Below, one piece after another: positions 6,372 through 61,434 of a DNA stretch of 64,000 nt (within the stretch, counting starts at the first letter, position 1; every line of letters begins with the position of its first letter). The notes beneath the pieces were generated by a model. That model ran no database searches, had not been told where the DNA came from, and saw nothing but the letters and a program-made list of their open reading frames with translations. The stretch is from the NCBI RefSeq assembly GCF_000292915.1, contig NC_018513.1, forward strand, positions 1,984,001-2,048,000, read 5' to 3'. Both the position numbers and the translations under genes were made by a program. This stretch comes from Burkholderia cepacia GG4. GTDB taxonomy: Bacteria > Pseudomonadota > Gammaproteobacteria > Burkholderiales > Burkholderiaceae.

Positions 6372-6869
6372 TCACTTGCCGTTCGTGGTGGCGGCTTCGC
6401 GTTCGCGTGCGATCTCGGCCTTTTGCTCTTCCGCCGACGAACACGCGACCAGAATGCTGCAGCTCACGCGATCGAGCAGTTGCGTGTTGCCGGAGCCCAT
6501 CCACCATCTCGACAACCCGCTGCGGCATCGGTGCCCGACGACCACGAGATCGGCCTTCAATTCCGTCGCGAGATTCGCGATTTCGTCGATCGGATAGCCG
6601 AACGCGAAATGGCCTTCCGCCTGGACGCCGCGCTCACGCAGCCAGTCCACGCCTTCCTGCAGGATCTCGCGCGCGGTTTCCTCGAAGCGGCCGCACGCAA
6701 CGTCAGTCAGCAGGCCCGCGCTTTGTGCAATGCTCGAGCGCATGTCGACGACCGACAGCAAATGCGTTTCCGCCTTCAGATCCAGCGCGAGATTCGCGCC
6801 GCAACGCAAGGCCTTGCGCCCTTCGAGCGTGCCGTCGTAGCACAGCAGAATCTTGTTGTAGCTAGCCAT
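6372..6869 (-). CDS. Universal stress protein (UspA family)
   Basis: This 165-aa single-domain USP begins MASYNKILLCYDGTLEGRKA, with the nucleotide-binding motif near the end as VVVGHRCRSGLSRWWMGSGN. This is close to the canonical G-x2-G-x9-G-(S/T) of ATP-binding USPs. A GGGAGG ribosome site precedes the ATG. It stands alone between convergent and divergent neighbours. Such proteins support survival under stress; the specific role is not visible from sequence. Confidence 0.9.
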   Translation of the reverse strand: MASYNKILLCYDGTLEGRKALRCGANLALDLKAETHLLSVVDMRSSIAQSAGLLTDVACGRFEETAREILQEGVDWLRERGVQAEGHFAFGYPIDEIANLATELKADLVVVGHRCRSGLSRWWMGSGNTQLLDRVSCSILVACSSAEEQKAEIAREREAATTNGK

Positions 6870-7196
6870 GAGACCTCCCTATCGCGACTACGTGCTTGAT
6901 GCATTCATCATGGTGCGCCGCAATTCCGGACGCAAGGGATGGAAAACGCTGATTCGCCACGCGGGGCGCGTCGGCGATGATGCGGTGCACGATCAGTGCA
7001 CCCATGCACCGCGCCGCGCGGGCGTGCCCTGAAGAGACGCAGCCGATGCACTAGAATGGCCCGTCCGTGCCATCGGCGCGCGCTCGCTTCGGTCATGCCC
7101 ATGTGACACGCATTCTCCCGATCCGTTCGCATGCCGACAAGCACATCCGGCCGACAGCGAAACGCGTTCGCGCACGCTTACAACGACAACCTGCCC
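6870..7196. other. Intergenic region between the usp gene and the NodI-like gene
   Basis: About 330 bp with divergent genes on either side, so it should contain two promoters. No convincing consensus promoter, terminator or small gene was found. The NodI-like gene has in-frame ATG codons inside this stretch (from 7131), so its true start could be slightly upstream of the one listed. Confidence 0.5.
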
Positions 7197-8111
7197 ATGT
7201 CCGTTGCACCGATCGATTTCCGGAACGTCGAAAAACGCTATGGCGGCAAGCTCGTCGTCAACGACCTGTCCTTCCACGTGCAGGCCGGCGAATGCTACGG
7301 CCTGCTGGGGCCGAACGGCGCCGGCAAGACCACGACGCTGAAGATGCTGCTCGGCCTCGTGTATCCCGACGCCGGCGCCATCTCGCTGTGCGGCGAACCG
7401 GTCCCGTCACGCGCGCGGCATGCACGCCAGCGCGTCGGCGTCGTCCCGCAGTTCGACAATCTCGACCCCGACTTCACGGTTCGTGAAAACCTGCTCGTGT
7501 TCAGCCGCTATTTCGGGATATCGGCACAGGCCGCGCGCGCGCTCGTGCAGCCGCTGCTCGAATTCGCGAAGCTGGAAAACAAGGCCGATGCGAAGGTCGG
7601 CGAATTGTCGGGCGGCATGAAGCGCCGCCTGACGCTCGCGCGCGCGCTCGTCAACGATCCCGACGTGCTGGTGCTCGACGAGCCGACGACGGGCCTCGAT
7701 CCGCAGGCGCGGCACCTGATGTGGGAGCGCTTGCGCTCGCTGCTCGCGCGCGGCAAGACGATCCTGATCACCACGCATTTCATGGAGGAAGCCGAGCGCC
7801 TGTGCGACCGGCTGTGCGTGATCGAGGAAGGCCGCAAGATCGCCGAAGGCGCACCGCACGCGCTGATCGAATCGGAGATCGGCTGCGACGTGATCGAGAT
7901 CTACGGGCCCGATCCCGTCGCGCTGCGCGACGAGCTGTCGCCGTTCGCGAAGCACACCGAGATCAGCGGCGAGACGCTGTTCTGCTACGTGACCGACCCC
8001 GAACCGCTCAGCGCGCGACTCAAGGGTCGCACGGGGTTGCGCTATCTGCATCGTCCGGCCAATCTGGAAGACGTGTTCCTGCGGCTGACGGGCCGCGAAA
8101 TGCAGGATTGA
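7197..8111 (+). CDS. nodI: NodI-like ABC exporter ATPase
   Basis: This ABC-2 type exporter ATPase of about 304 aa has Walker [11 protein letters not shown], signature LSGGMKRR, Walker [13 protein letters not shown] and switch ITTHFMEEA. The ending [19 protein letters not shown] is characteristic of the NodI/DrrA group. The nodJ-like permease follows 6 bp downstream, so the pair form an exporter. In rhizobia NodIJ exports lipochitooligosaccharide. In Burkholderia the homologues are chromosomal, no other nod genes are visible here, and the substrate is unknown. No strong ribosome site distinguishes this start from an ATG 22 codons upstream. Confidence 0.85.
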
Positions 8112-8117
8112 TCGATC

Positions 8118-8951
8118 ATGGACGTACGCAACTATTCCGCCGCCGCGCCGTCCGCACCGCCGCGCGAGTCGCGTTTCGCGATCGCGCTGCCCGCGAACGC
8201 AACCAACTGGATCGCCGTGTGGCGGCGCAACTATCTCGTCTGGCGCAAGCTCGCGCTCGCGTCGATGTTCGGCAATCTCGCCGATCCGATGATCTACCTG
8301 TTCGGGCTGGGGTTCGGGCTCGGTCTGATGCTCGGCCACGTCGACGGCGTGTCGTATATCGCGTTCCTCGCGGCCGGCACGGCCGGTTCGAGCGTGATGA
8401 TGTCGGCAAGCTTCGAGTCGATGTATTCCGGCTTCTCGCGGATGCACGTGCAGCGCACCTGGGAAGCCATCATGCACACGCCGCTCGCGCTGGGCGACAT
8501 CGTGCTCGGCGAGATCGTGTGGGGCGCGAGCAAGGCGCTGCTGTCGGGCGTCGCGATCATGCTCGTCGCGGGCCTGCTCGGCTATGCGGCGTTTCCGTCG
8601 ATGCTCGCGGCGCTGCCCGTGATCGCGCTCGCCGGCCTCGCATTCGCGAGCACCGCGATGATCGTCACGGCGCTCGCGCCGTCCTACGACTTTTTCATGT
8701 TCTATCAGACGCTCGTACTGACGCCGATGCTGCTGCTGTCGGGCGTGTTCTTCCCGATCACGCAGTTGCCGCCGATCGCGCAGCACGCCGCGCAGGCGCT
8801 ACCCCTCGCGAACGCGGTCGAACTGATCCGGCCCGCGATGCTCGGCCGGCCGGCGACGGACGTCGCCCTGCACGTCGCAGTGCTCGCCGGCTACGCAGTC
8901 GGCGGATTCGTGGTTTCCGCGTGGCTGTTCCGGCGGCGAATGATGCGCTGA
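8118..8951 (+). CDS. nodJ: NodJ-like ABC-2 permease
   Basis: This 277-aa inner-membrane protein has six predicted helices, with landmarks [40 protein letters not shown] and [21 protein letters not shown] segments. It matches the NodJ/ABC-2 permease family and is the partner of the preceding ATPase, 6 bp away. Its substrate is unknown; glycolipid or drug export is the family expectation. Confidence 0.85.
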
Positions 8952-8999
8952 CGGCCGGCGAGCATGGCGCCGGCTGGATACGATGACCTGGCGACGACG

Positions 9000-9422
9000 T
9001 TACTCGTCGTCGTCGCTCCACGGGATCTCGACGTCGGTCAGGAACGCGACGGTCGCCAGCGGGCCGCCTTCCTGGCGGCCGAGCTTGCCGTCCGCGCGGT
9101 GCCATTCGATGCGGAACTGCGTGCCCGGATCGTCGGCAACCAGATAGATCGTGCGCAGTTCTTCCGCATCGGCTTCGTCGACCGGGCCATCGAACGACAC
9201 CAACATCTTCTGCGGCCACAGGCCGTTCATCGGATCGTAAATGCGGTCGCCCTGCGGAATCTCGATGCTGGCCTCGACACCGATCGTGGCGGAGGCCTCG
9301 ATGATCATCGCGCCGAGTGCGTTCAGCACGGCCGTCGCCCGCGCGGAATTGGCCTGGCGGATCGCGAGATCGCCGCGCGTCAGCGCCTTTTCGAGTCGAG
9401 GATGAATCTTCGGTTGGGTCAT
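9000..9422 (-). CDS. Conserved hypothetical 140-aa protein
   Basis: I do not recognise the family. It is soluble and acidic, begins MTQPKIHPRLEKALTRGDLA and ends with an acidic tail (WSDDDE). There are no signal peptide or membrane segments. Codon use is typical of the chromosome, and an AGGAAAAC ribosome site precedes the ATG. It stands between the NodJ-like gene (convergent) and the permease gene (same strand, about 170 bp away). Confidence 0.75.
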   Translation of the reverse strand: MTQPKIHPRLEKALTRGDLAIRQANSARATAVLNALGAMIIEASATIGVEASIEIPQGDRIYDPMNGLWPQKMLVSFDGPVDEADAEELRTIYLVADDPGTQFRIEWHRADGKLGRQEGGPLATVAFLTDVEIPWSDDDE

Positions 9423-9594
9423 GCGTTTTCCTGTTTGCTTCTTGTAAAGGGCGTCGCACGCGCGAAGCGGCGACGCCGGATGAATACGACGGTCACGCGT
9501 CGGGATCGATCTGCACGCGCGACGCAGTGGCCATCACGCCGCTCGTTCGAGCGCCGGCCGGTCGCGCCCGATTACCGTCCCGTCTGCGTGCCCG

Positions 9595-28289: not shown

Positions 28290-28597
28290 GAGCCGCGCTG
28301 ATGCGCTAACGGATGCGCAAGCGCTCAAACTTTGACGAGATGCGCACGATGCGCTCGCCGGGCAAGGACCGTTCTGCTCTCACGGGGAGTGGGAGACGGC
28401 GTTCGTGCTCAACAGACTCGCCGCATCCCCTGTCGAGCAGCCCGCAGCAGCGCCGATCCTGCTGGTCGACGACAACGGCATGATCGCGCGTCCGGATCTC
28501 GAATGCGCGCGCGAAAACGACGCCATCACCTTCAGCGGCGAACTGCTCACGCTCTCCGGCAGCGCAGCTGCTCGAGGCGCTCGACTTCATGGCTCTG
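28273..28597 (+). pseudogene. Phage hypothetical gene with internal TGA, cut by an IS element
   Basis: The frame reads [23 protein letters not shown] (28333-28335), then continues in the same frame as [40 protein letters not shown] and so on. Near 28560 a second shift is suggested, because the alternative frame gives QLLEALDFM. The gene ends at the inverted repeat of an IS3-family element. The opening ([16 protein letters not shown]) is common in Burkholderia phages. Confidence 0.5.
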
Positions 28598-28602
28598 GGT
28601 AA

Positions 28603-29436
28603 TCCCCCGTTTTCCACGGGGTTCAGAAGTAGAAACCAAGCGGCCATGGCCAAACGCTGCTTTGGCGTAAATCCGCCCAAGGCCATGTTCGGGCGGTCGT
28701 GATGGTAAGTCCACATCCAATCTGTCGCGAAGCGCTGCACGTGGTCCAAGTCTTCCCAGTGGTACGGCGACAGCCATTCGTACCGGACGGTCCGGTTGAG
28801 TCGTTCGACATACGCGTTCTGCCGGGGCTTGCCCGGCTGAATGTAGTCGAGCCTGATGCCGTACTGTCGGGCCCATTCGATGATCGCTGCGCTCAGGTAC
28901 TCGGGCCCGTTATCGCACCGAATCGCTTTGGGTCTGCCGCGCGAACCGATGATCTGCCGCAGTGCACGGATCACGCGTTCCGATGGCAATGAGCAGTCGA
29001 TCTCGATGCCGAGTGCCTCGCGGTTGAAGTCGTCGATCACGTTGAACAGCCGGATGCTGCGTCCGTCGGCCAGTTAGTCGTGCATGAAGTCCATCGACCA
29101 GACTTGGTTGACGGTGCACGGCACCGCCAGCGGCTCCGGTACTTGCCTGACCAGTCGTTTGCGCGGCTTGATCCGCAGGTTCAGTTCCAGTTCGCGATAG
29201 ATCCGGCACACGCGCTTGTGATTCCAGCCGAAGCCCTTCACGTTGCGCAGGTACAGGTAGCACCGCCCGAAGCCCCAGTTCCGAGGGTTGTCCGTCAGGC
29301 GCAGCAGCCAGTTCGCAATCTCGTCGTTCTCGGCGCTGCGCCGGCCGACGTACTGATAACAGGCCTGACTGATCCCAAATGCTTCACATGCCAGCCGGAT
29401 CGATATGCCTCGGCTGGACACCGCATGCGTGGCCAT
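28603..29436 (-). pseudogene. IS3-family orfB (DDE transposase) with an ochre stop
   Basis: The N-terminal portion (RGISIRLACEAFGISQACYQ) and the integrase core are present. The catalytic Asp is in QVWSMDFMHD, the second in [12 protein letters not shown], and the Glu in [17 protein letters not shown] at 29074-29076 separates FMHD from [19 protein letters not shown]. Related transposases have Gln there, so CAA to TAA is the likely change. The catalytic acidic residues are therefore no longer on one chain. Confidence 0.85.
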
Positions 29437-29456
29437 CTCACGCCGGCAAGATGGCC

Positions 29457-29721
29457 TCAGTCTTTTTTTGCGAGCGCCTCCGCTACGATCTCAGCCGTGA
29501 TCTTCTCCTCGACGTACATCTTGCGCAGCCGGGGGGTCTCGGCCCCCAACTCCTTCATCCCCGCGATCAGCGAGACGTCCATGCCGCCGTTTCGAACGCC
29601 ATTTGTAGAACGTCGCCGTGCTGATGCCCAGCTCCCGGCACAGGTCTGGCACCGACAGCCCCGATTCCACGCGCTTGAGCGCGTCCATGATCTGGCTGTC
29701 CGTGAATCTCGATTTCTTCAT
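29457..29721 (-). pseudogene. IS3-family orfA, frameshifted
   Basis: It starts MKKSRFTDSQIMDALKRVES-GLSVPDLCRELGISTATFYKWR, the orfA helix-turn-helix. Just after FYKWRSK the frame shifts: the expected GGMDVSLIAGMKEL continues in another frame down to AEIVAEALAKKD and TGA. The A7G run (29463-29469) near the end is the usual site for programmed -1 frameshifting into orfB. Confidence 0.8.
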
Positions 29722-29791
29722 GCCGTAGAACTCCCTCAACGAGAAAATTCTACTTCCGATCACACCGGCTTTTTGGGGGGATTACCGCAGG

Positions 29792-29932
29792 TCACTCGAG
29801 AACATTCAGAAATGGTTCGACTACGTCGACAAGAACGTTGCCGACAAAGGAGCTCTCAGCGGCGGCCAGGGCGAGTTTCAGCGCTTGCGCAATCTCCTGC
29901 GCGCCGAGAAGCAGCGCGCAGGGATGATCTGA
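29792..29932 (+). pseudogene. C-terminal fragment of an unknown phage gene
   Basis: Immediately beyond the IS right end, an open frame without a start reads SLENIQKWFDYVDKNVADKG, then QGEFQRLRNLLRAEKQRAGM-I and stop. Codon choice looks coding. The N-terminal part was lost, probably through the IS or a rearrangement. It is not continuous with the phage gene on the other side of the IS. Confidence 0.45.
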
Positions 29933-29945
29933 AACACTGGCGTCA

Positions 29946-30641
29946 TTACTCCTTGGCGGCCGGCTTCACCGACATGAAAACCATGTGCCCAGCGTTCATC
30001 AGGATCTTGTAATTCTTGGCTTTGTCGTTGAGCGAGTCGTCGGCGATGATCGACTTGTTCAGCGGTGAACACTCCCACAGGTCGGACGGCATCTGGTACC
30101 CGAGGCTGCGTCCAATCAAACCGAGCGAGTCGATACTGCCGGCCAGCATCGTTGGCATGAGGCCGTTCTCGACGTTGATCGTGTACCAGCCGTACGGCGT
30201 GAAGTTGAAAATGCTGTATGAGTGCAGCGGCTCGAGATATGAGACGCTGCCGATGAATAGACCGCCGGGTTTGAGCGAGCGCACGATCTCGCGAAGCACG
30301 CGCTCTGGATACCGCACATGCTCGAACACCTGGTGCGAAAAGACGACGTCGAATGATTCGTCAGGGAACGGGATGTGCACACCATCGTACGAGTGAAACT
30401 CGCCATCCGTCCGAATCCGCGTGCGCACTTCCGGACTATCTTCGATGTCGAGCCCCTTCCACTCGGCGGCAATCCCGCTACCGGCGAACCAGTCGATCGA
30501 CTTGCCGTCGCCGCAACCGAAGTCGAGAACCTTGATCTTCCTGCCGGCAAACTGGTCGCGCAGCGAATGCAAAAGCTCAGCGGATGAATATTGTTGTGGC
30601 CGCCCGCTCGGGACCAAGTCCCATATCTCCTTCAAATACAT
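29946..30641 (-). CDS. Class I SAM-dependent methyltransferase
   Basis: This 231-aa Rossmann methyltransferase has motif I VLDFGCGDGKS (residues 38-48), an acidic end of strand 2 in LDIEDSPEV, and FDVVFSHQVFEHVRYPERVL (motifs post-I/II). This is the Methyltransf_11 pattern seen in glycan and lipid biosynthesis clusters. GGAGG lies 6 bp before the ATG at 30641. It is related over its full length, at roughly three quarters of residues by eye, to the N-terminal domain of the next gene upstream (30820-33429). The two are in the same direction, 178 bp apart. The likely substrate is a surface-glycan or nucleotide-sugar intermediate; not proven. Confidence 0.85.
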   Translation of the reverse strand: MYLKEIWDLVPSGRPQQYSSAELLHSLRDQFAGRKIKVLDFGCGDGKSIDWFAGSGIAAEWKGLDIEDSPEVRTRIRTDGEFHSYDGVHIPFPDESFDVVFSHQVFEHVRYPERVLREIVRSLKPGGLFIGSVSYLEPLHSYSIFNFTPYGWYTINVENGLMPTMLAGSIDSLGLIGRSLGYQMPSDLWECSPLNKSIIADDSLNDKAKNYKILMNAGHMVFMSVKPAAKE

Positions 30642-30819
30642 GCCCTGCCTCCGGGGAATAATACAGATGCAGTCAAGAACCAATATCACTCAGCCGCGTG
30701 CGTCGCACACCTTTACAATGGCACTTCGCGAAACACGAGCACTGCATCTTATCGCAAGCCGGATCGGGCGGGGCCTGTACACAGACGATTACCGGTTGAC
30801 AGTCGTCAGCGCGTCAGAG

Positions 30820-33429
30820 TCACGCGTCCGACAGCGTATTCAACCGGTTAGGCAGGGCTTCGGTCTCGTCCGACACCGACTTTTCAACGGCACCCTCGCA
30901 CTCGGAGAACGTGAACGTTGTAGTCACATCGGCGACCGCACCCTTCTTGAACGAAAGCCTGATCATCTTCACCGGCTCAAGTTCACCATACCGCGGAGAC
31001 TTCCAACAAAACGTCGACCCGGGCTGCGGCCTCATCTCCTCGATTGCCACCAGAGAATCGCTTGCAATGTATATCCGCAACATGGTAGATCGGCGTGTCG
31101 ACTTCACCGTGATGATGCCGCCGGCTATTTCAAGTTCCTTGTCAGCAGGGATTTGCCAAAATTGCTCATACTCAACATCAGAAGCGGCCGATGTCTTACG
31201 AATGCTATCTGAGACAACGAATTCGCCTACGCCATCGTAACGAAGAGCGCGATCCCATTCAAATCCCTCAAACATCGACGTAAACCCAGAAACATTCGCC
31301 ACGCGTCCATTTGACGCGCAGGATGTTATTCTTGGCACCGGCTCTGGGCAATGAGTGCGTTGCGCGCGCGCCCCAACCGGGGCGATTACACTGTGCGCGA
31401 AATGCGATCTCATGTGCTCGCGTTGCGGATCGCCGTGGTCATGCTTGTAAAGACCTCCATCAGTGAGCCATTCCTCTCCATAGGCATACACAAGGATATG
31501 GTTATCATCGTCTTGACGATGGTAGTGGCTGAGGAATCCACATTTGAAAATCAGGTGAGGCCGATCAGCGTATGAAAACCTGTCAAGCGCTCCACGCAGC
31601 ACGGCATATCCACTTTCCGGGAAGAATTTATGGCATGCACTATCAGCCTTCCCATCAGCTCCGCAGTTGATTGCATGCTTGTACTGATCGAAGCCTGGAA
31701 ACCCAGAAAGCCAATCGAACTTAAATCGCGACGGCTTAACCTCGGTGTCACCGAGCGGCGGCAGAAGCCCATCCGGTCTAATGATCGCAGACAGATAGTT
31801 TAGAGCACCTCGAACGAACTCTTTCGTGTCTCCGAGCAAGCTCCGCCCCTCCATAGATTCAACAACGGAGTTGATCTGCAGGGTGCTATTCATGATGACG
31901 CAATGGTACTCAGGACTGTTCTCAATGTGCACGTGTTCTGAACTGAACGATTTATTCAGTTCGTACTCGAGTCGCGACAATGAAACGGAATGTGCTTCAG
32001 AAGAACAAATCAAGAATGAAAAAATCCGGCTCGCTTGATAGAGGGCATATGCCTGATCAAGTCCGTGATTCGTTCCTCTCTCATAGAAATTATCACATAA
32101 CAAAACCCTCATGTGGCGCTCTGCAATCAGCGACAATAACTCCAACACGCTTCGATCCAGAGGCTTCGACTTCAGCAAGAATGCAAAATAGTACGCGAGG
32201 CTATTCAACCTGAAGGCTGTCGAGTGGTCATTCCATGAAAAGACTGATGGAAACGGAGCCTGTGTATTCCCGTCCAGCCAATCATTGACGATTGAATTCG
32301 CACAATCTATGTATCGATGTTCACCAGTTTCGGAAAACGCACACGCTAAATCGCGAAGGAACGGTAGAGAATGCAACTGCCAGCTCAAATTATGGCGCCC
32401 CGGATCGCCAAGAGACCAATTGATTGGCATAGAGACTTCAAGATGACCATAGCTAGAAAATGGGTACGTCTCGCTATCGAGCAACCCTATCGCCTTCTCG
32501 AGACTGCCACCCTTAACCCACGCTTCCGTTAGAGTGGATAGCTGCTTGCCAAGCTCCACCAGTGAAAAGTCGAACTCCACTGTACCAACGACGCTTTGAA
32601 AGTCTGGAGCGTAGCTCGAAATCGCAAAGTACTTGTGGGCGGCATTGTCTGGAGCATCTCCCGATTCTTGTCCTGGCGACCCGGAGCCAAGCTCATCAAC
32701 GGAGCCCTTCACTGCGTCAGTCGCATTATTCGTTGTTTGTGCGTACGACGCCTTCCTTGATACGAACACCATATGACCGGCGTTCATCAAAATCTTGTAG
32801 TTTTTGGCTTTGTCGCTAAGCGAGCTATCCGCGATGATGGCCTTGTTCAGCGGTGAGCACCGCCATAGATCGGTCGGCATTTCGCGACCGAGGCTGCGCT
32901 CAATGAGTCCCAGCGAATCAATGCCGCCGGCCAACATTGTGGGCACAAGACCGTTCTCGATGCTAACCGTGTACCAGCCGTACGGCGTAAAGTTGAAGAT
33001 GCTATATGAGTGCAACGGCTCAAGGTACGAGACACTGCCGACAAACAGACCCTCGGGCTTAAGCACACGCACGATTTCGCGGAGAACTCGCTCTGGATGC
33101 CGCAAGCGCCCAAATACCTGATGCGAAAAGACGACATCGAACGCCTCGTCCGCAAACGGGACGTGCACACCGTCGTATGTGTGGAACTCGCCATCCGTTC
33201 GGACTCGCGCGCGAACCTCCGGACTATCCTCTATGTCGAGCCCTTTCCACTCGCAGTCGATACCGCTGTTCATGAACCAGTCGATCGACTTTCCGTTTCC
33301 GCACCCGAGGTCGAGAACCTTGATTCTCCGGCCTACAAATCTGTCCCGCAGCGCATACAAAAGACCGCTTGATGAATATTGTTGCGGCTTATTATCAGGA
33401 ACTAAGTCCCAGATCTCCTTCAGATACAT
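30820..33429 (-). CDS. Methyltransferase-heparinase II/III-like fusion protein
   Basis: This 869-aa protein has two parts. Residues 1-225 are a SAM methyltransferase (motif I VLDLGCGNGKS), a diverged paralogue of the 29946-30641 gene. A Gly/Ser/Asp-rich linker (about 232-265) joins it to a lyase-like part. That part has an alpha/alpha toroid around 290-520 (LSWQLHSLPFLRD, FSWNDHSTAFRLNSLAYYFA, RGTNHGLDQAYALYQAS) and a beta-sandwich with HYHRQDDDNHILVYAYGEEW, the heparinase II/III pattern. There is no signal peptide. Codon use in the lyase part is much poorer in GC than the chromosome. It starts 140 bp beyond the Rz copy A stop, in the same direction. It could cleave or trim an acidic polysaccharide, capsule or exopolysaccharide. 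Confidence 0.8.
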   Translation of the reverse strand: MYLKEIWDLVPDNKPQQYSSSGLLYALRDRFVGRRIKVLDLGCGNGKSIDWFMNSGIDCEWKGLDIEDSPEVRARVRTDGEFHTYDGVHVPFADEAFDVVFSHQVFGRLRHPERVLREIVRVLKPEGLFVGSVSYLEPLHSYSIFNFTPYGWYTVSIENGLVPTMLAGGIDSLGLIERSLGREMPTDLWRCSPLNKAIIADSSLSDKAKNYKILMNAGHMVFVSRKASYAQTTNNATDAVKGSVDELGSGSPGQESGDAPDNAAHKYFAISSYAPDFQSVVGTVEFDFSLVELGKQLSTLTEAWVKGGSLEKAIGLLDSETYPFSSYGHLEVSMPINWSLGDPGRHNLSWQLHSLPFLRDLACAFSETGEHRYIDCANSIVNDWLDGNTQAPFPSVFSWNDHSTAFRLNSLAYYFAFLLKSKPLDRSVLELLSLIAERHMRVLLCDNFYERGTNHGLDQAYALYQASRIFSFLICSSEAHSVSLSRLEYELNKSFSSEHVHIENSPEYHCVIMNSTLQINSVVESMEGRSLLGDTKEFVRGALNYLSAIIRPDGLLPPLGDTEVKPSRFKFDWLSGFPGFDQYKHAINCGADGKADSACHKFFPESGYAVLRGALDRFSYADRPHLIFKCGFLSHYHRQDDDNHILVYAYGEEWLTDGGLYKHDHGDPQREHMRSHFAHSVIAPVGARAQRTHCPEPVPRITSCASNGRVANVSGFTSMFEGFEWDRALRYDGVGEFVVSDSIRKTSAASDVEYEQFWQIPADKELEIAGGIITVKSTRRSTMLRIYIASDSLVAIEEMRPQPGSTFCWKSPRYGELEPVKMIRLSFKKGAVADVTTTFTFSECEGAVEKSVSDETEALPNRLNTLSDA

Positions 33430-33567
33430 GCCCCATCCCCGGTGAAAATTGCGGCTGCCTTAGAGATAAACGCACATTACTCGCGCATTTCCTCATACTT
33501 TCTTGCAGCATTCATGTTTTAGCGATGGTAACGCATTTTGAAAGGAACGGCATGTATCAGAGCTTGA

Positions 33568-34033
33568 CTACCGGCTTGAGACGCTCAGCGAGTGATAGTC
33601 ACGCTCGCATTGTTGGCCGGCGATACGGGCTCGGTCAGCGTATTCCGCCAACGCTCCCGCGCGATCATCAATGCTGCCGAGCACGTCGGCGAGCATGCCG
33701 ATGCGGTCTCCGGCTGGCGCGCCTCCGGCGGTAGCGGCGGTATGGCTGGTGGTTGCGACGAACACGGCGAGTTGCTTGCACAGGCCGTCCAGCGGCAACG
33801 GCATCAGCGCGCGCCTGGTCACGATCTTTCGATGCATTTTCAGCAACCTCCTGTTGAGCCGCGGTGCTGCGTTGTTCCTCGGTTCGAGCGGCCTCGACCG
33901 CTTTCGTTTCTGCTGTCTCCGCATCGGACTGGATGACGGCGATCCGGCGCGCGCTGATCATGTGTTCAACGTCGAAGCCGGCAGCCGCACCGAGCAGCGC
34001 GGCCAGCAGGTACGGAATCGCGATTCGCAACAT
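33568..34033 (-). pseudogene. Phage Rz spanin, copy A (11-bp deletion)
   Basis: It starts MLRIAIPYLLAALLGAAAGF (inner-membrane anchor), with the Rz coiled-coil AVIQSDAETAETKAVEAART and so on. Compared with copy B, 11 bp (AGCAGCAGAAG on the plus strand) are missing near 33790, which throws Rz out of frame after QARADAVAA. The C-terminal Rz sequence (IGMLADVLGSIDDRAGALAE) is now joined in frame to the start of the embedded Rz1 frame instead. Neither spanin subunit should be functional from this copy. Confidence 0.75.
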
Positions 34034-34106
34034 CACAGCCCCCTCTCGCAAAGCGCGCGCTCTTTGGCCCGCCGCTTCACCAAGCCGGGAAGCACGCGGC
34101 CGCCCC
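33592..34106 (-). repeat. Direct repeat copy A: lysozyme end plus Rz/Rz1 module
   Basis: About 0.5 kb closely matching 35677-36195 in the same orientation. It includes the last residues of a phage lysozyme (GGRVLPGLVKRRAKERALCE), the TGATG overlap with Rz, and Rz. The similarity ends abruptly near 34106, where the LexA-box segment begins. The two copies flank a 1.5-kb plus-strand cassette. Confidence 0.75.
34032..34106 (-). pseudogene. C-terminal stub of phage lysozyme, copy A
   Basis: The frame GGRVLPGLVKRRAKERALCE-RGL ends at a TGA that overlaps the Rz ATG (TGATG), the normal lysozyme-Rz coupling. Only about 23 codons remain; upstream sequence is unrelated. Confidence 0.6.
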
Positions 34107-34147
34107 CTATTTTCGTTCTTGACGGGGCCATCTTACCGCGCGTTAAA

Positions 34148-34163
34148 CTGTATATTCATACAG
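34148..34163 (+). promoter_or_regulatory. LexA box in the island
   Basis: CTGTATATTCATACAG is a near-perfect LexA operator (CTGT-N8-ACAG with the alternating AT core), better than either box of lexA in this window. It lies 15 bp before a short ORF and 279 bp before the hydrolase start, with coupled frames between them. Prophage genes induced by DNA damage commonly carry such a box. Confidence 0.8.
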
Positions 34164-34177
34164 TACTTTTTGGCATC

Positions 34178-34243
34178 ATGATCAGGGCCGGCTACGGCCT
34201 TTTCATCGAAACGATCAACCGCCCGCCCGTGCTGGACGTGTGA
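34178..34243 (+). CDS. 21-aa ORF directly after the island LexA box
   Basis: It encodes MIRAGYGLFIETINRPPVLD-V. It is too short to judge from composition, and there is no clear ribosome site (the preceding bases are TTTTTGGCATC). It is listed because it is the first frame after a strong LexA box. It may be a leader, a small SOS peptide, or the start of a decayed gene. Confidence 0.35.
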   Translation: MIRAGYGLFIETINRPPVLDV

Positions 34244-34256
34244 ACACTGGTCCGGC

Positions 34257-34445
34257 GTGGCGCTCTGCGGTGGCGTACATGCGATCTGCATGCACCCCGG
34301 CAACGTCATCGGCGTTGTGACGCGATCGCGCTTAGGGTGCGCTTTTGGGGAATTGGCGATCGGCCTGGACGGGCTCGATGAGGAAACGTGCGATCGGCTC
34401 GCACATCAATTCGCACAACCGATGCGGTACACAACTGAGAAATGA
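34257..34445 (+). CDS. 62-aa ORF coupled to the hydrolase gene
   Basis: With a GTG start the product is VALCGGVHAICMHPGNVIGV and so on, ending LDGLDEETCDRLAHQFAQPM-RYTTEK. Its TGA overlaps the hydrolase ATG (ATGA), which suggests translational coupling and a shared transcript from the LexA-controlled promoter. No family is recognised; it could be the remnant of a phage gene. Confidence 0.45.
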   Translation: MALCGGVHAICMHPGNVIGVVTRSRLGCAFGELAIGLDGLDEETCDRLAHQFAQPMRYTTEK

Positions 34446-35620
34446 CAAGGCTACAGCAATGGGGATTCGCCCCAAGCTGGAATCCAGAGCCAACCGGAAA
34501 TACAATAGAAAGCTATTTGCACAACAACGTAGGCTTCCGGGGCGGCATGAACATCAACAAAATCGAGGCGACACATAATTCTGGCGCCGTGCGGTTCGAG
34601 ACATTTTGCGATCAACCAGCAGACGGTGCGCCCGAATACGCATACTACGTGTACCGGAACGGCGAGAAAATCCACGTCGAGTGGTACAAAGAGAGCCCGG
34701 TATTCGAGTACAACCACAACGGTGTGGACGGCTTTTACCATGCAGCCGGTTTCGTCAAAGACAGTGCTGGCTCGATCATCCAGAAAAGCTCGAATCCGCT
34801 TTTTCTAAACCCACGTGTTTTGACCGGCGGAATTTCTCAAGAACCTGCGTCGAGCCAGGCGTTGCTGTTCCAAAGCGACGAATGGGAAGTGCCGGCGCTG
34901 TACTATCCGCACGCCGAGAACCGTCTGTTTGTGCTCACGCCGTCAGCCGTCAATCGCGCTTCATACACACTGCCATCATTCCATCGATTCTCATGGGCCG
35001 CGCGCGGGCTGTTCCCCGGCAAGGTGTTGTGTTTCTCGGATCCAATGCTTGACCTGCACAGCAAGCTCGAAATCGGCTGGTGCGTCGGTACGCACGAGTC
35101 GGATCTCGCCGACGTGCTGGCAAAGTTGATTCTCGACACCGCACAATCGCTCGGCGTCCCGCAAGAACACATCGTGACATGGGGGTCGTCGGCTGGCGGC
35201 TTCGCGGCGCTCGCCTTGTCCTCTCGGATTGAAGGATCTACCGCCGTCGCGATCAACCCGCAGATTGATGCACTGAAATACCTCAACACGGCACAGGTCG
35301 AGCTTTTTAAAACCGTGGCATTCGCCGGGATTTCGGAAGACGAGATTCGAAGCGAGCACATCGACCGAATCGACATGCTCGAACGAAAGCGGAACAGCAA
35401 GCCGTTTCGCAGCGTCCTGATCCAGAATATTCATGACGAGCATCACTTCGAAATTCACGCGAAACCGTTCTGGAATGCACTCGGGGGCAATGTAATGGAT
35501 GGCTGGTCAGAATGCGGGAACGACCTCGCATACTTCTATCGCGATTCAGGTGGACATGTTCCGGAAACCGAGGAAATGCTTGCCGACATCGTCGGCAAGT
35601 GCTTCCCCGTTACGGCCTGA
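34442..35620 (+). CDS. Asp2/XcbB-like alpha/beta hydrolase
   Basis: This 392-aa protein has an N-terminal beta-rich region (about 50-115, EYAYYVYRNGEKIHVEWYKE) and a C-terminal alpha/beta hydrolase domain. The nucleophile motif is VTWGSSAGGFAALAL (GxSxG, Ser250), with a candidate acid in NIHDEHHFE (Asp332) and His372 in SGGHVPE. This layout recalls Asp2 of accessory Sec systems and XcbB/CpsF capsule proteins, which act on glycans as acetyltransferases or esterases. There is no signal peptide. It starts within a frame overlap downstream of a LexA box and is flanked by repeated Rz modules. Glycan O-acetyl modification is the working guess. Confidence 0.75.
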   Translation: MTRLQQWGFAPSWNPEPTGNTIESYLHNNVGFRGGMNINKIEATHNSGAVRFETFCDQPADGAPEYAYYVYRNGEKIHVEWYKESPVFEYNHNGVDGFYHAAGFVKDSAGSIIQKSSNPLFLNPRVLTGGISQEPASSQALLFQSDEWEVPALYYPHAENRLFVLTPSAVNRASYTLPSFHRFSWAARGLFPGKVLCFSDPMLDLHSKLEIGWCVGTHESDLADVLAKLILDTAQSLGVPQEHIVTWGSSAGGFAALALSSRIEGSTAVAINPQIDALKYLNTAQVELFKTVAFAGISEDEIRSEHIDRIDMLERKRNSKPFRSVLIQNIHDEHHFEIHAKPFWNALGGNVMDGWSECGNDLAYFYRDSGGHVPETEEMLADIVGKCFPVTA

Positions 35621-35662
35621 CAACGGCGAAACCGAACTGAAAGAACGGGCCTGCTGCGCTTC

Positions 35663-36139
35663 TCATCGGCCCGGCGTTGTCAGCGCGTCGTAATCCCGTT
35701 CGCACTGCTGGCCGGCGATGCGGGCGCGGTCAGCGTATTCCGCCAGCTCTCCCGCGCGGTCGTCAATGCTGCCGAGCACGTCGGCAAGCATGCCGATGGG
35801 GTCGCCGGCTGGCGAGCTTCCGGCGGAAGCGGCGGGATGGCGGGCGCCTGCGACGAACACGGCAAGTTGCTTGCGCAGGCCGTCAGCAGCAGAAGCAGCG
35901 GCAACGGCATCAGCGCGCGCCTGGTCACGATCTTTCGATGCATTTTCAGCAACCTCCTGTTGAGCCGCGGTGCTGCGTTGTTCCTCGGTTCGAGCGGCCT
36001 CGACCGCTTTCGTTTCTGCTGTCTCCGCATCGGACTGGATGACGGCGATCCGGCGCGCGCTGATCAGGTGCTCGACCTCGAATCCGGCCGCCGCCCCGAC
36101 GAGTGCCGCGACCAAGTACGGAATCGCAATCTTCAGCAT
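35663..36139 (-). CDS. Phage Rz (i-spanin), copy B
   Basis: This 158-aa protein has an N-terminal membrane anchor (MLKIAIPYLVAALVGAAAGF) and a long coiled-coil periplasmic region (SDAETAETKAVEAARTEEQR), typical of Rz i-spanins that disrupt the outer membrane in host lysis with Rz1. The frame is intact to its stop, unlike copy A. The upstream lysozyme remnant reads into it without a stop because of an extra G in a G run. It is probably not expressed in lysis context now. Confidence 0.8.
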   Translation of the reverse strand: MLKIAIPYLVAALVGAAAGFEVEHLISARRIAVIQSDAETAETKAVEAARTEEQRSTAAQQEVAENASKDRDQARADAVAAASAADGLRKQLAVFVAGARHPAASAGSSPAGDPIGMLADVLGSIDDRAGELAEYADRARIAGQQCERDYDALTTPGR

Positions 36140-36195
36140 CACAGCCCCCCTATCGCAAAGCGCGCGTTCCTCTGCGCGTCGTTTCAGAAGGCCGG
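35677..36195 (-). repeat. Direct repeat copy B: lysozyme end plus Rz/Rz1 module
   Basis: The partner of 33592-34106, same orientation, about 1.6 kb apart. Differences visible by eye are the 11-bp segment absent from copy A, six versus five C residues at 36145-36150, and scattered substitutions, so the copies have diverged and are not a recent assembly artefact. Confidence 0.75.
35680..35943 (-). CDS. Embedded Rz1 o-spanin lipoprotein, copy B
   Basis: A second frame inside Rz encodes MHRKIVTRRALMPLPLLLLL-TACASN and so on, 87 aa. It has a lipobox (LTAC), and the mature part is rich in proline (APAIPPLPPEARQPATP). Nested, out-of-frame Rz1 lipoproteins of this type are the outer-membrane partner of Rz. 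The overlap of nearly the whole gene with Rz is normal for lambdoid-type spanins. An alternative start is the Met in MPLPLLLLL. Confidence 0.7.
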   Translation of the reverse strand: MHRKIVTRRALMPLPLLLLLTACASNLPCSSQAPAIPPLPPEARQPATPSACLPTCSAALTTARESWRNTLTAPASPASSANGITTR

Positions 36196-36340
36196 GCAGC
36201 ACGCGGCCGCCAGCCGTCACCCACTGCGGCCGCCCGCTGTCCGACTCGTTCATCGCGCGGCACGCGCCCCGCCAGTCGCCAGCGTTGAATCGCCGGGCGG
36301 TCGTGCTCGAGCAGTACGCTGCCGTCCCAACGTTGTAGGC
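36138..36340 (-). pseudogene. C-terminal remnant of phage lysozyme, copy B
   Basis: The minus-strand frame reads FEGFAYNVGTAAYCSSTTAR and RVLPGLLKRRAEERALCDRG, the C-terminal third of a phage GH24-type lysozyme (RrrD/R type). The expected GL-stop is lost: six G residues (complement of 36145-36150), compared with five in copy A, shift the frame and fuse it to Rz. The catalytic N-terminal part is absent; the sequence meets the integrase end near 36340. Confidence 0.65.
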
Positions 36341-37228
36341 GAAGCCTTCGAATGGCAGGAGGCGTTGCCGCACACCGACGAGCGACGCAAGGCGCAGATC
36401 ACGCTCGATGAGAACCGCGTCGAGTCGACGCACCTCATCAAGGTGTTCGGGAAAATGCAGCCGAAGGCTATCAAGCCGAAGCACGTGTATGGCTACCTCG
36501 ACAAGCGCGCGCAGCTCGGCGCGCCCGCGAAGGCGAACAAGGAAGTCGCCCTATTGTCCGCTATCCTCGAGTACGGCCGCCGCCGCGGCGATGTCGAGAC
36601 TAATCCGTGCCGCGGCATCGAATACAACCCGACGCGGCCACGCCAGTGGTACGTGCGGCAGGACGAGATCGAGCTCGCCGTCGAGGTCGCGCGATCGCGC
36701 CGTAGCGTCGGCGACCAACACCCCAGCTCCGCATACCTGATCCTCGCGCTGTGCGTGCAGGCGGCCTATCTCACCGTCAGCCGGCCGACCGAAATGCGCG
36801 AGTTACACCGCCAGAGCCATCGGCCCGAAGGCGTCGAGGTCCCGATCGGCAAGCGCAAGGCTGGCGAGCAGCAACGCGTGAAGCTCGTGCTGTGGTCACC
36901 CGAGCTGAGGGCTGTGATCGACGAAGCCATGGCGCTGCAGCGCACCTCGAGCGTGCACGTGTTCGGCAATACCGCCGGCCAGGTGGATACGCGTAGCGGC
37001 TGGAACACGAATTGGTCGCGCCTGATGGGTTATTGCGAGAAGGAAGCACAGAGGCGCGGTGTCGAGTTCGAGCGGCTCGCCCTGCGCGACATGCGCCCGG
37101 CTGCCGTTACAGATCGGCAGGAAGAAGGCGACGACCGAATCATCGACGCAACCGGGCATGCCGACGAGCGTATGGTGCGGAAGACCTACGATCGACGACG
37201 CCAACGAAAGGTGCGCGCCACGCGTTAG
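36337..37228 (+). pseudogene. Tyrosine integrase lacking its N-terminus
   Basis: An open frame of about 296 codons without a start encodes GEAFEWQEALPHTDERRKAQ (core-binding domain). The catalytic domain has the first Arg in TVSRPTEMREL, the second conserved region LALRDMRPAAVTDRQEEG, then ATGHADERMVRKTYDRRR, where the Tyr is the expected nucleophile. The missing arm-binding N-terminus may be the stub at 27765. The reading direction, toward tRNA-His 1 kb away, is that of an integrase next to its attachment site. Confidence 0.8.
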
Positions 37229-38234: not shown

Positions 38235-38310
38235 TGGGGTGGCTGATGGGACTCGAACCCACGACGACAGGAATCACAATCCTGGACTCTACCAACTGAG
38301 CTACAGCCAC
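38235..38310 (-). tRNA. tRNA-His (GTG)
   Basis: The minus strand folds as a cloverleaf: acceptor GTGGCTG/CAGCCAC, D-arm GTAGCTCAGTTGGTAGAG, anticodon loop GATTGTGATT with GTG, T-arm GTCGTGGGTTCGAGTCCCAT and encoded CCA. The base before the acceptor stem reads G on the tRNA strand, as required for G-1 of tRNA-His. The decayed island lies on its 3' side. Confidence 0.97.
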
Positions 38311-59332: not shown

Positions 59333-59419
59333 GCCCAGGTGGCGGAATTGGTAGACGCACTAGGTTCAGGTCCTAGCGGTGGCAACATCGTGGAGGTTCG
59401 AGTCCTCTCCTGGGCACCA
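59333..59419 (+). tRNA. tRNA-Leu (CAG), copy 1
   Basis: 87 bp, class II tRNA with the long variable arm. Acceptor GCCCAGG/CCTGGGC, anticodon stem-loop CTAGG-TTCAGGT-CCTAG with CAG, T-arm GAGGTTCGAGTCCTC and encoded CCA. It is identical to copies 2 and 3 by eye. Confidence 0.97.
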
Positions 59420-59429
59420 TCTGTTTTTT

Positions 59430-59459
59430 AAAAAGGTCGGCTTCTAGCCGGCCTTTTTT
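59430..59459 (+). terminator. Terminator of tRNA-Leu copy 1
   Basis: AAAAAGGTCGGC-TTCTA-GCCGGCCTTTTTT hairpin plus T-tract, 10 bp after the tRNA. The same module follows copies 2 and 3. Confidence 0.9.
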
Positions 59460-59553
59460 CATTTCAAGCCCAGGAAGCAAAGCGCCTGCGCGCTTTGCGT
59501 GGGGACTCGAAGGGCTGCGCTTGCAAGCGCAGCCGGGGTCGCACATGTGTGAC

Positions 59554-59625
59554 CGAGTCCTCTCCTGGGCACCATCTGTTTTATAAAAAGGTCGGCTTCT
59601 AGCCGGCCTTTTTTCATTTCAAGCC
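59554..59625 (+). repeat. Ghost tRNA-Leu 3' end with a second terminator
   Basis: CGAGTCCTCTCCTGGGCACC and the following terminator repeat 59399-59470 almost base for base, but the rest of the tRNA is absent. It looks like the remnant of an extra tandem tRNA-Leu unit lost by deletion. Confidence 0.8.
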
Positions 59626-59759
59626 TCGCATCTCGAGCATCGGCCGCGCCTTTATGCCGGCCACACCGATCGATAGCAGAATTAATCGGTTATCGATCGC
59701 CCTCCCCGTTGATACGTTAGCCGCCTTGATTTCAACGAACCCAACGAGGAGCACGATCC

Positions 59760-60749
59760 ATGACGTCGATGAACCGCCGCGCATTTGCGCACGCGATGCT
59801 GGCCGCCGGCCTGAGCGCCGCCGGCATCCGCGCGCATGCCGAGAGCGCACCTTCCGTGCTGCGCATCGGATACCAGAAATCGTCGACGCTCATCACACTG
59901 CTCAAGACGCGCGGCACCCTGGAGCAGGCACTGGCGCCGCTCGGCCTGCGCGTATCGTGGCATGAATTCGCGAGCGGTTTGCCGCTGACCGAAGCGCTCA
60001 ACGTCGGCGCGGTCGATTTCAGCGCCGACGTCGCCGACACGGTTCCGGTGTTCGCGCAAGCCGCGCATGCGCGTTTCGTGTACGTCGCGCAGGAAGCGCC
60101 GTCGCCGAAGGCGCAGGCCATTATCGTCAAGAAGGACAGCGCACTGCGCACGCTCGCCGATCTCAAGGGCAAGCGCATCGCCGTTACGAAGGCCGCCGGC
60201 AGCCACTACCTGCTGCTCGCCGCGCTCGCGCGCGCGAAGCTTGCCCCCGCCGACACGGCGATCCACTACCTGACGCCCGCGGACGGCCGCGCGGCGTTCG
60301 AGCGCGACAGCGTGGACGCATGGATCACGTGGGATCCGTATGTCGCGTCGGTCGACTCGAATCCCGACGTGCGGATTCTGGTGGACGGTAACGGGCTCGC
60401 GTCATACCAGCGCTATTACCTCGCATCGACCAGCTTTGCCGCAGCACGCCCCGACGTCATCCAGATCGTGTTCGACCGGTTGTCACAGGCCGGCGCGTGG
60501 CTGCGCGAGCATCCGCAGGAGGCAGCCAGTACGCTCGCGCCGATCTGGGGGCTCGACGCAACGACGATCGAGCGCGCGAATGCACGACGCAGCTATCTCT
60601 TGCGCGCCGTGCTCGCGCAGAATTTCGGGGAGCAGCAAAAGATCGCCGATATGTTCCTCGCGGCGGGGTTGCTGCCGGCCCGCGTCGACACGAGTCAAGC
60701 GCTCCACTGGAATTTCGCGGCAAAGCGCGCGGATCCGGTCGGCGCCTGA
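59760..60749 (+). CDS. SsuA-like aliphatic sulfonate-binding protein
   Basis: This 329-aa periplasmic binding protein has a twin-arginine-like or Sec signal (MNRRAFAHAMLAAGLSAAGI). The NMT1/SsuA pattern is RIGYQKSSTLITLLKTRGTL, FASGLPLTEALNVGAVDFSA and DVADTVPVFAQAA. Sulfonate, nitrate and taurine binding proteins share this fold. It stands alone between tRNA-Leu copies 1 and 2, with no permease or ATPase beside it. It may serve the SsuCB transporter at 40-42 kb. Confidence 0.88.
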   Translation: MTSMNRRAFAHAMLAAGLSAAGIRAHAESAPSVLRIGYQKSSTLITLLKTRGTLEQALAPLGLRVSWHEFASGLPLTEALNVGAVDFSADVADTVPVFAQAAHARFVYVAQEAPSPKAQAIIVKKDSALRTLADLKGKRIAVTKAAGSHYLLLAALARAKLAPADTAIHYLTPADGRAAFERDSVDAWITWDPYVASVDSNPDVRILVDGNGLASYQRYYLASTSFAAARPDVIQIVFDRLSQAGAWLREHPQEAASTLAPIWGLDATTIERANARRSYLLRAVLAQNFGEQQKIADMFLAAGLLPARVDTSQALHWNFAAKRADPVGA

Positions 60750-60799
60750 TGTCCGAATCCGCAACGCGAAATATTTTTATCGCTATCGATCAAATTGTG

Positions 60800-60827
60800 T
60801 TGACAGCTTCTTCAGACACGCTACAAT
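60800..60827 (+). promoter_or_regulatory. Promoter of tRNA-Leu copy 2
   Basis: TTGACA, 16-bp spacer, TACAAT. The region from here to the tRNA matches the copy 3 upstream region nearly base for base. Confidence 0.85.
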
Positions 60828-60858
60828 AGCGGTCTTCGCATCGCAGTAAGCGAAACGT

Positions 60859-60945
60859 GCCCAGGTGGCGGAATTGGTAGACGCACTAGGTTCAGGTCCT
60901 AGCGGTGGCAACATCGTGGAGGTTCGAGTCCTCTCCTGGGCACCA
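60859..60945 (+). tRNA. tRNA-Leu (CAG), copy 2
   Basis: 87 bp with encoded CCA, the same sequence as copy 1 by eye. Confidence 0.97.
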
Positions 60946-60953
60946 TCTGTTTT

Positions 60954-60985
60954 TAAAAAGGTCGGCTTCTAGCCGGCCTTTTTTC
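60954..60985 (+). terminator. Terminator of tRNA-Leu copy 2
   Basis: The same GGTCGGC-TTCTA-GCCGGCC hairpin and T-tract as after copy 1. Confidence 0.9.
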
Positions 60986-61074
60986 ATTTCAAGCCCCGGA
61001 ATCAAAGCGCCCACTCGCTTTGCGAGAAGACTCGAAGGGCTGCGCTTGCAAGGATGGTGTCACGCCTGTGTGAC

Positions 61075-61134
61075 CGGATCTCCCCCCGCGCACCATCTGC
61101 CTCACAAGAAGGTCGGCTTCTGCCGGCCTTTTTC
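61075..61134 (+). repeat. Decayed ghost tRNA-Leu 3' end after copy 2
   Basis: TCCCCCCGCGCACCATCTGC followed by GGTCGGCTTCTGCCGGCCTT is a more diverged counterpart of the ghost at 59554. The bases before it (ACTCGAAGGGCTGCGCTTGC) also match the spacer that precedes the first ghost. Confidence 0.65.
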
Positions 61135-61288
61135 ATTGCGACGCCGGAACCAGGCGCACCCGTGACCGTCCTTGTGCGCGCGCCCGGAATCGTCACGCAT
61201 TGACGATGCGCTTCAGTCGCCGTGGCACACCCTCTCCGGCTCAACGGACCAGCCGCCAAATTATTTTCGTTCGCAACCTCAAATTCTA

Positions 61289-61316
61289 TTGACAGATCTT
61301 TCGAATACGCTAGAAT
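61289..61316 (+). promoter_or_regulatory. Promoter of tRNA-Leu copy 3
   Basis: TTGACA, 16-bp spacer, TAGAAT, followed by the same leader as copy 2 (AGCGGTCTTCGCATCGCAGT). Confidence 0.85.
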
Positions 61317-61347
61317 AGCGGTCTTCGCATCGCAGTAAGCGAAACGT

Positions 61348-61434
61348 GCCCAGGTGGCGGAATTGGTAGACGCACTAGGTTCAGGTCCTAGCGGTGGCAA
61401 CATCGTGGAGGTTCGAGTCCTCTCCTGGGCACCA
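61348..61434 (+). tRNA. tRNA-Leu (CAG), copy 3
   Basis: 87 bp with encoded CCA, identical by eye to copies 1 and 2. A terminator hairpin follows at about 61444-61472. Confidence 0.97.

Follow-up and report, generated by a model that had tools for sequence, protein, structure and literature searches.

Several described enzymes bear comparison with a gene of Burkholderia cepacia GG4 in which a class I methyltransferase (MT) is fused to a heparinase II/III-like (Hepar) domain, and which lies in a 64,000-nucleotide stretch of contig NC_018513.1 (assembly GCF_000292915.1, positions 1,984,001 to 2,048,000; hereafter the window). Human dermatan sulfate epimerase 1 (PDB 6hzn) is an enzyme of the secretory pathway. 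In heparinase III, which together with HepC represents family PL12 (PDB 4mmh, 5jmd), we take Asn240 and His424 to be catalytic. Tyr294 is given as a catalytic residue of the same enzyme in one report (PMC11848413). Vibrio vulnificus VV0358 likewise has a Hepar_II_III domain, a likeness to the fusion drawn from its description rather than from a sequence comparison, and its disruption led to capsule-deficient phenotypes; the accessible portions of that report mention no MT for it, propose a heparosan- or alginate-like capsule, and note that lyases are able to break down polymer set free in the periplasm (PMC6037467).

The fusion is 16-17% identical to heparinase III and HepC, falling far short of the NCBIfam HepC cut-offs (56.9 against 700 bits and 26.3 against 600 bits), and 13% identical to the human epimerase. 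It differs further from heparinase III and HepC in having no signal-like N-terminus, in being joined to an MT and in having relatives that adjoin capsule genes. The reading favoured here, at a probability of roughly 0.5, is that the fusion is a cytosolic capsule-tailoring enzyme, either a uronate C5 epimerase or a lyase, carrying a probably non-catalytic MT.

The fusion gene and its two halves

The gene and its parts, together with a stand-alone MT paralogue, are arranged as follows (window positions).

30820..33429, minus strand: fusion gene, class I MT plus heparinase II/III-like domain, 869 amino acids (open reading frame, Pfam)
32743..33429, minus strand: MT domain, residues 1-229 (Pfam, comparison with paralogue)
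33103..33111, minus strand: residues 107-109, Gly-Arg-Leu where relatives have Glu-His-Val (alignment)
32644..32742, minus strand: linker, residues ~230-262 (sequence and alignment)
30820..32643, minus strand: Hepar_II_III domain, alpha/alpha toroid plus beta sandwich, residues ~263-869 (Pfam and predicted fold)
32068..32070, minus strand: Asn454, aligned with Asn240 of heparinase III (alignment)
31906..31908, minus strand: Tyr508, aligned with Tyr294 of heparinase III (alignment)
31519..31521, minus strand: His637, aligned with His424 of heparinase III (alignment)
31447..31449, minus strand: Tyr661, candidate second active-site Tyr (spacing from His637)
29946..30689, minus strand: stand-alone MT paralogue, likely start 30641 (open reading frame, Pfam, alignment)

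The fusion frame is confirmed as a real gene structure: the single frame of 869 codons that a preliminary description of this DNA had reported runs from an ATG without internal stop, here placed on the minus strand, and the plus-strand translation of the same interval has many stops. Each domain scores above its Pfam cut-off, with Methyltransf_11 at residues 39-130 (66.7 against 21.2 bits), Hepar_II_III_N (PF16889) at 318-566 (75.3 against 22) and Hepar_II_III_C (PF07940) at 598-754 (42.4 against 24), and the Gly/Ser/Asp-rich linker noted in the same description was recovered at residues ~230-262. The lyase-like toroid and sandwich that it had proposed is upheld for the Hepar domain by Pfam and by the predicted structure, which has the heparinase III fold and covers residues ~263-848, the final ~22 residues of the protein being poorly modelled. 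The absence of a secretion signal agrees with a crude test in which the N-terminal 45 residues held no hydrophobic stretch (best 12-residue mean 0.51); this test flagged four of 55 sequences (P0011, P0033, P0035 and P0165) and missed P0163, which is signal-peptide-like by eye.

The Asn/Tyr/His set of PL12 heparinase III is present in the fusion. Asn454, Tyr508 and His637 match residues of the 4mmi chain lying, by hand count, at an offset of 24 from N240, Y294 and H424, and all three are conserved in 44 of 44 aligned sequences, so that the check on lyase active-site residues proposed in the preliminary description found them intact. Tyr661 is conserved in 43 of the 44, and its distance from His637, by which alone it was placed and not by alignment, resembles that between His444 and Tyr470 in PL33.

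The MT half had been called complete, a view not supported by comparison with its relatives. The paralogue, which the preliminary description does not mention, lies directly downstream of the fusion and is 79% identical to fusion residues 1-229. In an alignment of 122 sequences (the 120 best of 619 relatives, together with P0030 and the paralogue), the fused MT keeps the S-adenosylmethionine (SAM)-binding glycine motif (D40, G42, G44, G46, D65) and differs at only three of the positions that are at least 80% conserved, residues 107-109, where Gly, Arg and Leu replace Glu (122/122), His (122/122) and Val (120/122). The paralogue retains all three, so the Glu-His pair of its subfamily is missing from the fused copy alone of the two. 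The paralogue's His lines up with the second His of the His-His pair in the glucose O-methyltransferase 6uv6, an alignment that is the support here for the catalytic His which we presume for RebM-type methyltransferases, a role for which a literature search gave no source; the Glu-His pair is not universal, being absent at the equivalent site in four of five aligned solved methyltransferases (one of which has His-His). A non-catalytic or altered role is suggested by this substitution, and the MT module of the fusion is probably non-catalytic. P0030 (502 amino acids) joins the window's MT family to a second, different MT (Methyltransf_24).

Between the two MT copies, synonymous divergence (dS) is 1.2 and nonsynonymous divergence (dN) 0.12, giving a dN/dS of 0.10; the copies are under purifying selection overall. 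A recent tandem duplication was rejected on the dS of 1.2, and the pair may stem either from an older duplication or from two separate arrivals. One tree grouped the paralogue with P0039 of Burkholderia diffusa, its nearest relative with a named source (support 95, on an internal branch of only 0.012), with the fused copy just outside; another drawing did not separate the three. The terminal branches of the copies are similar (0.18 and 0.14), which argues that the fused MT is not freely decaying. A six-frame scan of the window recovered no convincing Hepar remnant behind the paralogue (best other E 0.67).

Relatives, other fusions and capsule genes

The exact fusion is rare, as had been suspected. 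A whole-fusion protein search, in which scoring covered the 7,997 candidates with the most words in common, gave 36 matches, and only the window's own protein had both domains. The window's genome (G000; 6.47 Mb, two contigs) was the only one of 65 sampled from the genus to match the fusion at 1e-20, and with the Hepar profile at E <= 1e-60, a cut that misses the distant Hepar proteins of G044, G045 and G047, one of 399 genomes of the order was recovered. Three loci were found in the genome-contig collection, 18 of 72,556 plasmid records matched in part, none across >80% of the query, and the result lines of a literature search held no description of an MT-Hepar fusion.

The Hepar profile itself found 54 proteins at E 1e-10 (7,996 candidates scored), and nine of the 53 other than the window's carry an extra part. 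These include a hydrolase in P0012, P0031, P0032 and P0170, a PF11316 glycosyltransferase in P0025, a hexapeptide transferase in P0171, DUF6270 in P0173 and, in P0163, a C-terminal part without Pfam match that resembles a deacetylase by eye only. The ninth, the metagenomic P0161 (822 amino acids), has the same two domain kinds as the fusion in the opposite order, Hepar first; its Hepar domain is 32% identical, and its MT is a different one, aligning with the paralogue across 34 residues only (E 8e-4), so the two fusions were joined independently. Because such a share of the profile matches carry an extra part, fusion appears to be a habit of this Hepar clade. The circumstance that would have told against the fusion, its occurrence here alone through a lost stop codon, thus nearly holds for the exact architecture and fails for the clade: a lost stop in this strain is too narrow as the whole story, and is a possible origin of this particular junction.

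The part joined to Hepar in P0031 is homologous to a neighbour of the fusion.

34442..35620, plus strand: alpha/beta-hydrolase gene, distantly XcbB/CpsF-like (profile match, alignment)

The surface-glycan setting suggested by the preliminary description was borne out among the relatives, as Hepar adjoins glycosyltransferase or capsule genes in all six other Hepar loci examined. For example, L005 has, in order, an export protein, UDP (uridine diphosphate)-sugar enzymes (one identified by eye), two glycosyltransferases, a hydrolase, Hepar and a hexapeptide transferase. Similarly, L006, from Shinella, combines a UDP-sugar dehydrogenase and a glycosyltransferase with three genes above the Hepar_II_III_C cut-off, two of which matched the Hepar profile, and a sub-cut-off hexapeptide-like gene. 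In L007, from Acinetobacter rudis, a single protein contains both hydrolase and Hepar, alongside glycosyltransferases and a PF05159 capsule gene. L021 and L022 each encode two Hepar-containing proteins and L023 encodes one, beside hydrolase, DUF6270 and glycosyltransferase genes; one glycosyltransferase in L023 includes an FkbM methyltransferase domain. In these last loci the proteins, of 1127-1199 amino acids, consist of a long N-terminal part, without Pfam match in four of the five scanned, and a distant Hepar domain, and lie beside hydrolase and DUF6270 genes.

L022, 5385-8852 and 10285-13668: long Hepar proteins
L021, 3299-6691 and 8123-11722: long Hepar proteins
L023, 8014-11430: long Hepar protein

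Within the genus, PF16889 was found in four of the 65 genomes (G000, G044, G045 and G047), and DUF6270, a capsule-cluster marker, in the same four; if genomes are treated as independent, two sets of four would coincide by chance with a probability of 1.5e-6. The hydrolase occurs in these four and as a broken copy in G057, an 82% complete genome. The capsule cluster of the window's genome (C1:2992000-3011900) holds two PF05159 proteins, glycosyltransferases, DUF6270, a UDP-sugar dehydrogenase and export genes, three of which show 69-81% identity to L022 across the portions present. In this genome PF16889 and the hydrolase matched only in the window, whose genes may supply Hepar and hydrolase functions to the distant cluster. 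A 2.8-kb stretch of the cluster with glycosyltransferase sequence has a second copy ~0.6 Mb away at 98-99.9% identity, which suggests that capsule genes were copied recently.

L028, 12623-14954 (G000 C1:2992000-3011900): duplicated capsule stretch
L029, 6578-9350 (G000 C1:2372000-2390000): duplicated capsule stretch

Prophage setting and the neighbouring hydrolase

The position ascribed to the fusion, just behind a phage Rz gene of the same orientation in a decayed prophage, was verified: both the fusion and the copy-A DUF2514/Rz gene upstream of it (33668-34051) are on the minus strand.

33585..34104, minus strand: DUF2514/Rz region copy A, carrying an 11-nt gap when aligned with copy B (comparison of copies)
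35680..36211, minus strand: DUF2514/Rz region copy B, in the same frame as an endolysin remnant (comparison of copies)
28306..29763, minus strand: IS3-type transposase genes, downstream of the paralogue (open reading frame, Pfam)
36335..37210, plus strand: phage integrase, C-terminal part only (sequence scan)
38235..38310, minus strand: tRNA-His, beside the integrase remnant (tRNA scan)

The two Rz copies have diverged, with 82-93% identity in three pieces, and flank the hydrolase gene, which lies on the opposite side of the fusion from the paralogue. Fusion, paralogue and hydrolase are all full length and open, and this cargo has a lower G+C content than its flanks. Elsewhere in the window, three tRNA-Leu (CAG) genes lie within 2.1 kb (59333-61434).

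The hydrolase matches the XcbB/CpsF capsular polysaccharide family in part (residues 221-293) and is not a member, scoring 32.9 bits against the NCBIfam NF033892 cut-off of 125. Ser250, Asp332 and His372 are invariant in seven aligned sequences and are its candidate catalytic residues. The nearest relative from the genus search is the G057 copy (L024, C127:1-9000), which shares 72% identity and is interrupted by stops; inspection by eye recognised no capsule gene around it in the 9 kb of L024. The N-terminal part of the hydrolase (~residues 29-121) matches both the C-terminus of P0170 (residues 840-924) and a stretch that follows the hydrolase region in the L007 protein at 6615-9515, and its occurrence there as a separate stretch suggests a movable module.

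Proposed capsule tailoring and its alternatives

In the favoured reading, the Hepar domain would be an epimerase, or with lower probability a lyase, that uses Tyr508 and His637 at the C5 position of a uronic acid within a capsule polymer, the carboxylate being neutralised by Asn454. Having lost Glu-His, the fused MT would probably only bind the glycan chain (or SAM) and so keep the Hepar domain on its substrate; methylation would fall to the adjacent paralogue. The target would be a capsule-type polymer encoded ~1 Mb away, and the corresponding loci of related species have Hepar and hydrolase in place. Intracellular C5 chemistry, and epimerisation over cleavage, are favoured because of the N-terminus without signal character and the repeated fusion to glycan-modifying enzymes. 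What the sequence data show directly is the fusion, its residues, the predicted fold and the gene associations; we infer the cytosolic site, the substrate, the choice of epimerase over lyase, the scaffold role and the action in trans.

Several observations weigh against this. The fusion sits in a decayed, IS (insertion sequence)-rich region, ~1 Mb from the capsule cluster to which it is linked by co-occurrence in four genomes, and this co-occurrence is supportive and no more, because the same related cluster is shared by three of the four. In G044, G045 and G047 the Hepar domains are distant from the window's (E ~1e-20 to 1e-23), and the fetched capsule loci contained no member of the window's MT family beyond one weak match (L029). 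The loss of Glu-His does not prove that methylation is lost, and dN/dS between the MT copies also covers time before the fusion. The full-length model is poor (predicted local distance difference test, pLDDT, 53; alignment of 11 sequences), with no domain contacts readable. Activity and substrate are predictions from sequence.

A working bifunctional enzyme, whose MT methylates a glycan that the Hepar domain cleaves as a lyase, would fit the intact Hepar residues, the SAM motif and other conserved columns kept in the fused MT, the low dN/dS, and P0161, in which both activities were linked independently. We consider it unlikely, given the loss of a pair present in every aligned relative, the adjoining paralogue that has both residues, the lack of a signal-like N-terminus, and relatives in capsule-type clusters, a setting in which cytosolic depolymerisation would presumably be wasteful. 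The proposal that the protein both methylates and trims a surface glycan is accordingly supported in part, for its setting and its Hepar residues, and not for methylation by the fused MT.

It is similarly improbable that the genes are a stranded scrap of a second surface-polysaccharide cluster in a decayed prophage, fused through loss of the MT stop and unused by the cell. The gapped Rz copy, truncated integrase, endolysin remnant and IS3 genes around them, the broken hydrolase of G057, the lower G+C and the absence of a promoter-like match on the fusion strand in a crude scan of 29400-36500 would all accord with such a relic, but the three cargo genes remain open, the Hepar catalytic residues and the putative hydrolase triad are intact, and the MT copies show purifying selection, albeit partly pre-fusion. 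Lysogenic conversion, in which a lambda-like phage brought the genes beside its Rz to alter a surface receptor, would explain the position and direction of the fusion and the tRNA-His beside the integrase remnant, and Burkholderia phage Bcep176 has related Rz and endolysin genes. Such a phage moron is not favoured and is very unlikely, as four pattern scans confirmed no relative of the fusion, Hepar domain, paralogue or hydrolase in viral contigs, and among 50,697 phage records the fusion had one distant match (22%).

Returning to capsule tailoring, a broader suggestion can be made tentatively, with the odds against it: a clade of cytosolic heparinase-fold enzymes may build rather than degrade, inverting capsule uronates before export in the manner of dermatan sulfate epimerase, and may have been repeatedly fused to methyl-, acyl- or glycosyltransferase or hydrolase modules, the MT here being a non-catalytic glycan binder with its working copy beside it. 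Hepar II/III-like proteins are usually named and read as degradative lyases. A capsule-cluster Hepar group with intact residues and several fusions offers a testable case for polymer tailoring during synthesis, whether by C5 epimerisation or controlled cleavage, and a pair of MTs with and without Glu-His would exemplify the reuse of a sugar methyltransferase as a module.
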